Shown here piece after piece: positions 5,614 to 7,941 of a stretch of DNA of 60,632 bases. Location of the stretch: the NCBI GenBank assembly GCA_005888755.1, contig VBBQ01000034.1, positions 1 to 60,632 of the forward strand, given 5' to 3'. Position 1 is the stretch's first letter, and the number at the start of each line of letters is the position of its first letter. The position numbers and the translations under genes were made by a program. Source of the DNA: Candidatus Bathyarchaeota archaeon. Lineage in GTDB: Archaea; Thermoproteota; Bathyarchaeia; 40CM-2-53-6. The notes under the pieces were generated by a model. It did no database searches. It had not been told where the DNA came from and saw only the letters and a list, made by a program, of their open reading frames with translations.

Positions 5614-7101
5614 TTAGCCTTTCGCGACTCCTATTGGAGTCATACGCACAACCTTCTGGCCGATTCCCAGTTGATGACTGACCTCGACCACTCTGTCGAC
5701 ATCCTTGTATGCGCCAGGAGCCTCTTCGGCCAATACCTCCATGCTAGCCGCTCGAATAACAATGCCCTGACTTTCCAGATTCTTCTTGAGATCATTTCCA
5801 AACCATTTGCGTTTGGCACCGGATCGACTCATGAACCGGCCTGCTCCGTGTGCAGTTGTCCCGAAACTAAGCTCCATTGCCCGGGGAGTTCCGATTAGGA
5901 CCCAGCTGCTGGTGCCCATGCTCCCTGGAATGAGAACGGGCTGTCCAACATCGCGGTATTCCGCTGGAATGTCGCGGTGCCCAGGTGGAAACGAGCGTGT
6001 TGCGCCCTTCCTGTGAACGGTAACCTTCTTTGTTTCCCCGTCGATCATGTGAGATTCGACTTTCGCCACATTGTGGGCGACGTCGTAGACTATCTTCATA
6101 TCGAGAGAGTCGGCTGGGCGCTGGAATACCTTCGAGAACGCTTCTCTCGACCAGTGGGTTATCATTTGCCGGTTCACGAAGGCGAAGTTGCATGCGGCTG
6201 ACATAGCAGGAATATAGTCCTCTGCCTCCGGACTCTTGCTCGGGCATGCAGCCAATTCTCGATCGGGAAGCTTGATGTTGTACTTGTTGATCGCTCTCTC
6301 CATTACTCTTAGGTAGTCGCTGCAGGTCTGGTGACCATACCCTCTACTTCCAGTATGAATCAAAACAAGAATCTGGCCTTCCTTGTGGATGCCGAGGCGT
6401 TCTGCGACGCGCTTATCGAAGATCTTATCGGCTCGCTCGATCTCGATGAAATGGTTTCCACTGCCTAGACTGCCGAGCTGCGGAGCCCCACGGGACTTTG
6501 CGCTGTTCGAAACCTTCGAAGGATCGGCAGCTTCCATACATCCCTCCTCCTCAATCGTCTTCGGGTCTTCGGGCCAAGCATAGCCATGGTCTACAGCCCA
6601 ATCAAGCCCGTCGGTAACGGCGCGATCTAGTTCGGTGACACTGAGTTTGACTTGGCCGCGGCTTCCCAGTCCTGAGGGGATGAAGTTGAAGATAGTGTCT
6701 ACAAGCTTCGGTAGAACTGGGCGTACCTCTTCCTCGGTAAGGTTTGTCCGGATCAGTCTGACTCCGCAGTTAATGTCGTATCCGACTCCGCCGGGGCTGA
6801 TCAGGCCTTCGTCATAGTCGGTTGCTGCTACGCCGCCTATCGGAAAACCGTACCCTTCATGCCCGTCGGGCATCGTGATTGCGTATTTGCAAATCCCATC
6901 TAGGTGCGCGACGTTCACGCACTGTTGAATTGTGCGGTCGGTTCTCATCTTGGACAGTAGGTCTTCGTCGGCGTAGATTCTAGCTGGAACTTTCATACCC
7001 GGGTCGAAGTCTTTCGAGACCTCCCACACGTTAGGCTCAATTTGGGTTAGAGGAATCTGTGTGCTGGAACGATTGATGAGTCCGGACCCTTGATGGCTCA
7101 T
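5614..7101 (-). CDS. rtcB: tRNA-splicing RNA ligase RtcB
   Basis: GTP- and Mn2+-dependent RNA ligase that joins 2',3'-cyclic phosphate to 5'-OH ends, the archaeal enzyme that seals tRNA exons after endonuclease cleavage. The 495-residue protein carries the metal-site motif GYDINCG (residues 108-113 hold the conserved Asp and Cys), SGNHF, HTGSRGYGHQ, VAHNVAK, and near the C-terminus AHGAGR, where the His is the residue guanylylated in characterised RtcB. No intein interrupts it, unlike several archaeal homologues. It lies 123 nt downstream of the archease gene on the same strand, close to an intron-bearing tRNA-Ser, so substrate and enzyme genes are neighbours. Confidence 0.96.
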   Translation of the reverse strand: MSHQGSGLINRSSTQIPLTQIEPNVWEVSKDFDPGMKVPARIYADEDLLSKMRTDRTIQQCVNVAHLDGICKYAITMPDGHEGYGFPIGGVAATDYDEGLISPGGVGYDINCGVRLIRTNLTEEEVRPVLPKLVDTIFNFIPSGLGSRGQVKLSVTELDRAVTDGLDWAVDHGYAWPEDPKTIEEEGCMEAADPSKVSNSAKSRGAPQLGSLGSGNHFIEIERADKIFDKRVAERLGIHKEGQILVLIHTGSRGYGHQTCSDYLRVMERAINKYNIKLPDRELAACPSKSPEAEDYIPAMSAACNFAFVNRQMITHWSREAFSKVFQRPADSLDMKIVYDVAHNVAKVESHMIDGETKKVTVHRKGATRSFPPGHRDIPAEYRDVGQPVLIPGSMGTSSWVLIGTPRAMELSFGTTAHGAGRFMSRSGAKRKWFGNDLKKNLESQGIVIRAASMEVLAEEAPGAYKDVDRVVEVSHQLGIGQKVVRMTPIGVAKG

Positions 7102-7224
7102 TGTTTCTCTTCGCTCGGGGTGATTCCTGAACAGCTACCTATAAGCATGGCTGGTCGAGCAACGAAAATAGTCAAGATGGCGATGCGCGGGTAGTCGGTC
7201 GTTCAACTCGGATGATTGATTTTG

Positions 7225-7662
7225 TTATAGGTCGAGCAGGAATCTGACAGTCACTTTTCCGGGATGTTTTTCTATTTCCATCAAGTGGTATGTTATTCCT
7301 TTGACCTCCACTTTCCCGTTGTGTCTTATCCGATTGTAGGGCTCGCCGCTTGCTTTGCCCTTGAGTCTGATTTCGCCTTGATTCGGGGAAATCGAGTTTA
7401 CGACAAATCCTCCGAGGGCAAGCTGCTTGATCTCAAACAGAAGCAGGAGCTCTTCAAGATAATTGTATAGGAGTTCTTTCTCGTCATGACCGATGGTTTG
7501 GATCTCCTCGTTGGCTTTTGGGTGAACGCTCTTTGTGTCCAGCATTGTTTCGAACAAGGCTTGGCCTGCTTGAGCGAAGGCTTCTTCCAGGGTATCTCCC
7601 CACGCCTCCACTAGCGCGTCTGTTACATGTTCGAGAAACTTGTATCCTCCAGATCCTTCCAA
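7225..7662 (-). CDS. Archease, RtcB activator
   Basis: Small metal-binding cofactor that promotes RtcB guanylylation and lets the ligase turn over. The 145-residue protein has the family pattern YKFLEHVTDALVEAWG (conserved His and Asp), GDTLEEAFAQAGQALFE, the ELLYNYLEELLLLFE helix, and a C-terminal VKGITYHLMEIEK...VRFLLDL. Start is TTG at 7662: an in-frame stop lies five codons upstream and no ATG precedes the conserved core. It is encoded just upstream of rtcB, the common archaeal arrangement. Confidence 0.94.
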   Translation of the reverse strand: MEGSGGYKFLEHVTDALVEAWGDTLEEAFAQAGQALFETMLDTKSVHPKANEEIQTIGHDEKELLYNYLEELLLLFEIKQLALGGFVVNSISPNQGEIRLKGKASGEPYNRIRHNGKVEVKGITYHLMEIEKHPGKVTVRFLLDL

Positions 7663-7763
7663 GGATTTTTCGACTCAATCGTTTCGTCGCTCCGTTAGAA
7701 CTACTTATTAGGTGACTTCTGTGCGCTCGTTCTTTGACCTGAAGGCGGGTTGACGCGCCGGGA

Positions 7764-7799
7764 TAATGCAAGTATCCAAGTGGTCTCTTGCATCCCGTT
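7764..7799 (+). other. tRNA-Ser intron 1, at the acceptor/D-arm junction
   Basis: About 35 nt between acceptor position 7 (A7763) and G9 (G7800); the exact cut is ambiguous because T flanks both sides. The exon end and intron fold into one hairpin: CGGGAT (7759-7764) pairs with ATCCCG (7792-7797), a 3-nt AAT bulge (7765-7767) interrupts, then GCAAG (7768-7772) pairs with CTTGC (7787-7791) over a 14-nt loop. A 3-nt bulge between two helices is what a relaxed bulge-helix-bulge site looks like. Confidence 0.75.
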
Positions 7800-7814
7800 G
7801 GCCGAGTGGATTAA

Positions 7815-7835
7815 CCTGCTGATGTAGGGTCTAAA
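7815..7835 (+). other. tRNA-Ser intron 2, in the D-loop
   Basis: About 21 nt; the boundaries can slide by two A residues. It folds as CCTGC (7815-7819), loop TGAT, GTAGG (7824-7828), with a flanking TTA/TAA pairing. Its removal turns an impossible loop of about 30 nt into GCCGAGTGGATTAAGGCG, the usual tRNA-Ser D-arm. Confidence 0.75.
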
Positions 7836-7840
7836 GGCGC

Positions 7841-7867
7841 AGATCTTCCAGCGATGTGAGAGCGTAG
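7841..7867 (+). other. tRNA-Ser intron 3, within the 5' strand of the anticodon stem
   Basis: A 25-nt insertion with a duplicated AG at both ends, so the cut may lie at 7841-7865, 7842-7866 or 7843-7867. All three give the same mature anticodon stem CAGGC, pairing perfectly with GCCTG (7877-7881). Without removal the stem would start with a U-G pair and lose the D-stem to anticodon-stem spacing. Confidence 0.75.
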
Positions 7868-7941
7868 GCCTTGAGAGCCTGTGGCCCGTTAGGGCCGCGT
7901 GGGTTCGAATCCCACTCCCGGCGCCAAAAAAAATAATACAA

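Follow-up and report, generated by a model that had tools for sequence, protein, structure and literature searches.

Heavy fragmentation of tRNA genes is associated with the Thermoproteales, with hot habitats and with large-scale intron transposition. Members of this group (Pyrobaculum, Thermofilum) carry up to three short introns with the bulge-helix-bulge (BHB) motif, at canonical and non-canonical sites, which are cut by an EndA endonuclease of the (alpha-beta)2 type with a Crenarchaea-specific loop (CSL) and joined by the ligase RtcB, features that the locus described here probably shares. The maximum in the literature is three introns per archaeal tRNA gene, and the record intron load, 71 introns in 46 tRNA genes, belongs to P. 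calidifontis (PMC8450103, PMC4033280, PMC3293823); in P. islandicum, the introns of tRNA-Pro(UGG) lie at positions 25/26, 37/38 and 56/57 (PMC4090602). According to one report, a lysine of the CSL enables the enzyme to cleave relaxed BHB motifs (PMC6379350).

We analyzed a window (the whole stretch of DNA, 60,632 nucleotides) of a Bathyarchaeota MAG of 2.0 Mb in 48 contigs, about 95% complete, whose named relatives in the genome collection are Candidatus Bathyarchaeota MAGs, with isolate BA_21 as the nearest (RtcB identity of 99%). Depths in cm in the scaffold names suggest a soil habitat for the relatives. The initial annotation had proposed a tRNA-Ser(TGA) gene with three non-canonical introns at 7757-7926 (+ strand), a proposal that was borne out by BHB motifs at the three junctions, by orthologues that naturally lack one, two or all of the introns and by the failure to find a second copy. 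It is a class II tRNA-Ser(UGA) gene with an encoded CCA, and it is arranged together with its upstream elements as follows:

7704 to 7712, + strand: TATA-like sequence CTTATTAGG, about 50 nt upstream of the tRNA-Ser gene, conserved in the genus; putative promoter element
7735 to 7756, + strand: 5' leader TGACCTGAAGGCGGGTTGACGC, 22 nt, conserved in the genus though its flanks vary; a small hairpin is predicted
7757 to 7764, + strand: exon 1, tRNA nt 1-8, GCCGGGAT; pairs with 7916-7922 (TCCCGGC) and is the same in every orthologue
7765 to 7799, + strand: intron 1, 35 nt, position 8/9
7800 to 7813, + strand: exon 2, tRNA nt 9-21, from orthologue comparison
7814 to 7834, + strand: intron 2, 21 nt, position 21/22 (D-loop)
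7835 to 7842, + strand: exon 3, tRNA nt 22-29, from orthologue comparison
7843 to 7867, + strand: intron 3, 25 nt, position 29/30 (anticodon stem)
7868 to 7926, + strand: exon 4, tRNA nt 30-73 plus CCA, with the anticodon loop, variable arm, T-arm and acceptor 3' strand

Excision of 7765-7799, 7814-7834 and 7843-7867 leaves an 86-nt class II tRNA plus CCA, which folds into a cloverleaf with an acceptor stem of 7 bp (GCCGGGA/TCCCGGC), a D-stem of 3 bp, an anticodon stem of 5 bp, a perfect T-arm (GTGGG-TTCGAAT-CCCAC), a long variable arm and the anticodon loop CTTGAGA (UGA). The discriminator G is at 7923 and CCA at 7924-7926. The acceptor stem, T-arm, variable arm and CTTGAGA loop thus read as the initial annotation had described them, its approximate insert lengths of 35, 21 and 25 nt are identical to those measured, and the 86-nt class II product that it had predicted is called tRNA-Ser(tga) by ARAGORN. 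Its three insertion sites also stand, except that intron 1 does not lie exactly at the end of the acceptor stem but follows T8; the third insert, placed in the anticodon stem, could be refined to a split of this stem between nucleotides 29 and 30. The spliced form shares 93% identity with L211, an orthologue that naturally has no intron.

The leader upstream of exon 1 could be an RNA leader, a shared divergent promoter element or a regulator. TGACCTGAAGGCGGGTTGACGC could in addition pair with the 5' strand of intron 2, to which it is complementary; this candidate pairing was found by eye, with L043 and L049 apparently showing double changes, and folding mostly favours the leader hairpin.

Neither ARAGORN nor Rfam at gathering thresholds found the tRNA-Ser(UGA) in the window, as had been anticipated for standard finders, and the best Rfam matches to the locus were partial (tRNA-Sec, 27 bits; tRNA, 19.4 bits). 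ARAGORN recognized the spliced form and left the unspliced form undetected. We used a purpose-written intron-aware search anchored on the acceptor stem and T-arm, in which introns are proposed from BHB geometry alone (a 4-nt exon/intron helix, 3-nt bulges and an inner helix) and the resulting cloverleaf is scored. The top parse consisted of exactly the three introns listed above, with a total of 55.5 compared to a maximum of 35.5 when the interior was dinucleotide-shuffled 400 times. Intron placements with an equally good BHB made up fractions of 0.0003, 0.0014 and 0.0009 of all those tested at junctions 1, 2 and 3, respectively.

All three junctions carry a BHB motif with a 4-bp central helix (H), 3-nt bulges and a predicted cut after the second bulge nucleotide. 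At intron 1, H is formed by 7759-7762 (CGGG) and 7794-7797 (CCCG), with the bulges AT^A and TT^G and the inner helix ATGCAAG/CTTGCAT. H of intron 2 comprises 7808-7811 (GGAT) and 7829-7832 (GTCT), with CCTGC/GTAGG as inner helix, and that of intron 3 comprises 7837-7840 (GCGC) and 7862-7865 (GCGT), with the bulges AG^A and AG^G. In several orthologues with an intron 2 of 20 nt, the strict 3-nt-bulge register leaves two inner base pairs only, and a 4-nt bulge is needed. Group I or group II self-splicing introns, which have a long catalytic core, were ruled out, given inserts of 35, 21 and 25 nt that have no Rfam match.

Natural alleles with and without the introns, the evidence that weighs most, were found among 26 distinct orthologous genes that could be parsed, which show six combinations of introns including none and all of which splice to near-identical tRNAs of 85-87 nt. 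The set at 8/9, 21/22 and 29/30 is carried by 14 of the 26 orthologues; three have introns at 8/9 and 21/22, three at 21/22, 29/30 and 37/38, three at 21/22 and 37/38, one at 8/9, 21/22 and 37/38, and two are intronless. Intron 1 is cleanly missing in L048, L050, L051, L054, L056, L059, L078 and L079, intron 2 is missing in L048 and L050, and intron 3 is cleanly missing in L047, L049, L052, L051, L056, L059, L075, L048 and L050. The H helix of intron 3 is kept in all 17 orthologues that bear this intron, and the inner helix of intron 1 shows compensatory changes (e.g., T-A to C-G, G-C to A-T). In an RtcB tree, in which the row L077 is frameshifted and misplaced, L068 and L073, both without intron 3, nest within the three-intron group, so that loss of intron 3 in this lineage is suggested, two gains being the alternative.

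Failure of standard finders to recognize the locus would be expected of a tRNA pseudogene in decay, interrupted by chance insertions. However, the exons are under purifying selection and nearly invariant over the 26 orthologues whereas the introns vary freely and yet retain BHB pairing; synteny is retained and no replacement gene was found in the roughly 95% complete genome. Neither relaxed constraint nor an intact copy elsewhere was thus observed, and a pseudogene is very improbable. The same alleles bear on the idea that the inserts are expansion segments that persist in the mature RNA. In its favour, the predicted full-length fold retains the acceptor stem and T-arm, and the inserts form additional hairpins in it. 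Against it, relatives precisely lack the inserts, whose lengths range from 16 to 36 nt, the inserts split the anticodon stem and the D-arm and terminate in BHB motifs, and genes for splicing enzymes are present in the genome; we hardly give this idea any credence. Although the host is a MAG, an assembly or binning artefact is extremely improbable, as ten genomes of the genus have the same gene structure, with identities of 94-100%, and it recurs in diverged form in other genomes from separate projects.

The serine tRNAs of the host genome comprise one each with the anticodons UGA, CGA, GGA and GCU, of which CGA and GGA were read by hand. No second tRNA-Ser(UGA), the intact copy that the initial annotation had advised looking for, was found in this fragmented, approximately 95% complete MAG, where a copy could lie in a gap. 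When an uninterrupted anticodon arm was sought, allowing three mismatches at most, the tRNA-Ser(UGA) locus was recovered at one mismatch and all other matches at three, the total of seven matches compared to four in the control being near chance level.

We also inspected the EndA genes and the genes adjacent to the tRNA. The expectation that non-canonical sites need a heteromeric or broad-specificity endonuclease agrees with the two EndA genes of the genome, a catalytic alpha gene in C46 with the CSL lysine and a degenerate beta gene in C32 devoid of catalytic residues. EndA alpha aligns best with the EndA subunits of A. pernix, S. tokodaii and P. aerophilum (3P1Z, 2CV8, 2ZYZ), keeps the Tyr/His/Lys triad (GADFAVYE, GIDHAP and VRKQF, aligned to 3P1Z) and has Lys42 opposite Lys44 of the A. 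pernix CSL. EndA beta (L002) matches PF01974 and PF02778, and the Y/H/K triad is missing in its alignments. Together, the two would probably form an EndA of the (alpha-beta)2 type with a broad-specificity loop. Divergent from the tRNA-Ser gene lie:

7225 to 7674, - strand: archease (RtcB cofactor), Pfam PF01951, E 6.9e-40
5614 to 7101, - strand: RtcB tRNA-splicing ligase, Pfam PF01139, E 1.7e-170

This divergent neighbourhood (window 5614-7926) is shared by several families of the order. All relatives that have a true tRNA-Ser(UGA) keep it save where the locus ends early, and it is present also beside intronless tRNA-Ser(UGA) genes.

From the gene anatomy, junctions and BHB geometry, the intron-minus alleles and the genes for EndA alpha and beta, RtcB and archease, all of them read in the DNA, we infer transcription and splicing at this locus, as well as the splicing order and subunit assembly proposed here. 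It is very likely that this is the single functional tRNA-Ser(UGA) gene of the genome, whose three BHB introns are cut by an EndA of the (alpha-beta)2 type and whose exons RtcB ligates together with archease. Its transcription would give a precursor that measures about 170 nt in addition to the leader. At the end of intron 1 stands CCCG followed by TT, of which CCCG duplicates part of the acceptor 3' strand, and in its BHB the acceptor 5' strand (nt 3-6) would pair with this mimic. Intron 1 would be removed first, either while the true acceptor 3' strand is still to be transcribed or with the acceptor open; introns 2 and 3 would then be cut by EndA, and ligation of the exons by RtcB with archease would yield the 86-nt class II tRNA.

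Predicted folding of a nascent transcript ending in exon 2 gave a probability of about 0.93 for three of the four core pairs of intron 1 and 0.23 for the outermost, whereas in the full-length transcript the core fell to about 0 because the acceptor stem outcompetes it. The same three pairs in nascent transcripts of further orthologues reached at least 0.7 in seven, 0.3-0.4 in two and 0.14 in one; in L075 the core persists in the predicted full-length fold too. Since the core helix is predicted in the nascent but not in the full-length transcript, early, possibly co-transcriptional removal of intron 1 is suggested. The cores of introns 2 and 3 were only weakly or not predicted in the full-length fold, which counts against the preferred explanation, as do the loss of the intron 1 core to the acceptor stem in that fold and the 4-nt bulge needed for several 20-nt forms of intron 2.

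Compatibility of the acceptor stem with the inner hairpin of intron 1 in the predicted full-length fold raises the alternative that all three introns are real and that intron 1 is excised through a relaxed motif with a closed acceptor stem and not through its own BHB, the more so as tolerance of relaxed motifs is reported for EndA enzymes that have the CSL lysine (PMC6379350). Nevertheless, all 18 orthologues bearing intron 1 retain the core CGGG/CCCG (or CTCG), and tRNA-Phe has CGAG/CTCG at the same site. Because of this retention and the matching tRNA-Phe helix, the core looks selected; we consider the relaxed route unlikely and retain cleavage at the BHB of intron 1.

We also analyzed the remaining tRNA genes of the genome, which were located by T-arm patterns and share the intron architecture of tRNA-Ser(UGA). 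Introns were present in 23 of the 25 resolved genes (24 parsed automatically and tRNA-Phe by hand; loci L003-L033, L143-L194), about 50 in total or roughly 2.0 per resolved gene, and nine genes had three or more. A template-guided check made use of 20 intronless templates. The sites include 8/9, 9/10, 14/15, 15/16, 20/21, 22/23, 29/30, 30/31, 37/38 and the variable loop, although exact junctions are uncertain by a few nucleotides for several introns outside tRNA-Ser(UGA) and the counts are firmer than the positions. About ten further precursors (Cys, Asp, Gln, Pro-CGG, Ser-CGA, Ser-GGA, Thr-GGT, Arg-TCT and others), intron-bearing by eye and lacking an automatic parse, are left out of these counts. 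ARAGORN recognized all 25 spliced tRNAs compared to 3 of 25 unspliced, one of these three with a doubtful anticodon. The highest number of introns was found in tRNA-Phe:

G000:C4:90839-91006 (also delimited as 90839-91003; L225; L028:1420-1587): tRNA-Phe(GAA), four introns, parsed by hand

Its introns lie at 8/9, 18/19 (D-loop), 37/38 and 46/47 (variable loop). Near relatives lack the 8/9 intron only, a more distant one lacks two, and an intronless tRNA-Phe gene in G040 matches the spliced product, so that the forms with four, three, two and no introns all give the same tRNA. As in tRNA-Ser, the end of the tRNA-Phe 8/9 intron mimics the acceptor 3' strand (core CGAG/CTCG). Introns at 8/9 or 9/10 also occur in tRNA-Asn(GUU), tRNA-Lys(CUU) and tRNA-Phe (L019 in C28, L021 in C46 and L028 in C4). 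The tRNA-Trp(CCA) precursor (G000:C13:141884-142086; L029) is about 203 nt long and has a 65-nt intron at 37/38, a length sufficient for a guide RNA, as in other archaea. No sign of intron transposition between tRNA genes was seen, the top similarity between introns of different tRNAs being 0.71 compared to shuffled maxima of 0.64-0.72.

Since most tRNAs of this Bathyarchaeota genome are fragmented like tRNA-Ser, an extreme tRNA-intron load occurs outside the known hot-spring lineage. In such genomes most tRNAs escape standard annotation, which affects MAG completeness estimates and claims of missing tRNAs. With an equal or higher intron density outside the Thermoproteales, a broad-specificity EndA and no visible transposition, intron gain and loss and the co-evolution of EndA with tRNAs become directly testable, and the graded series of alleles, from 0 to 4 introns per gene among relatives, provides material for tests of gain and loss. 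BHB tRNA introns of archaea are of a known kind, while this lineage and its intron density are apparently undescribed: no description of Bathyarchaeota tRNA introns was found in the open literature searched, an absence that is not proof of novelty. This work adds the lineage, natural alleles that form a graded series, the neighbouring ligase genes and an intron load that extends over the whole genome and includes a four-intron tRNA. We think it rather probable that this lineage has the most intron-dense tRNA set known (about two per gene, three in several genes, four in tRNA-Phe), outside the Thermoproteales and without transposition, and that introns at 8/9 in several of its tRNAs mimic the acceptor 3' strand, which would force ordered early splicing.

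Compared to the Thermoproteales, the locus belongs to a different class (Bathyarchaeota), and its sites 8/9 and 21/22 are missing from the non-exhaustive site list of a review (PMC4090602). Transposed introns are reported there, whereas introns of different tRNAs are here no more alike than shuffled ones, and the density of about 2.0 introns per resolved gene (25 resolved) compares with the 71 introns that P. calidifontis has in 46 genes (PMC8450103). The tRNA introns of Caldiarchaeum subterraneum and of thaumarchaea are likewise non-canonical, in D-, V- and T-arms, and outside the Thermoproteales, but they affect 13 of 45 tRNA genes compared to 23 of 25 resolved genes here (PMC3293823, PMC8450103). 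The split or permuted tRNA genes of Nanoarchaeum, Caldivirga and Staphylothermus share BHB-dependent joining by EndA, whereas the tRNA-Ser exons are all ordered in one transcription unit. Three introns per tRNA at odd sites are also found in Cyanidioschyzon merolae and in the nucleomorph of Guillardia theta, which are, however, eukaryotic and have an EndA of another subunit type.
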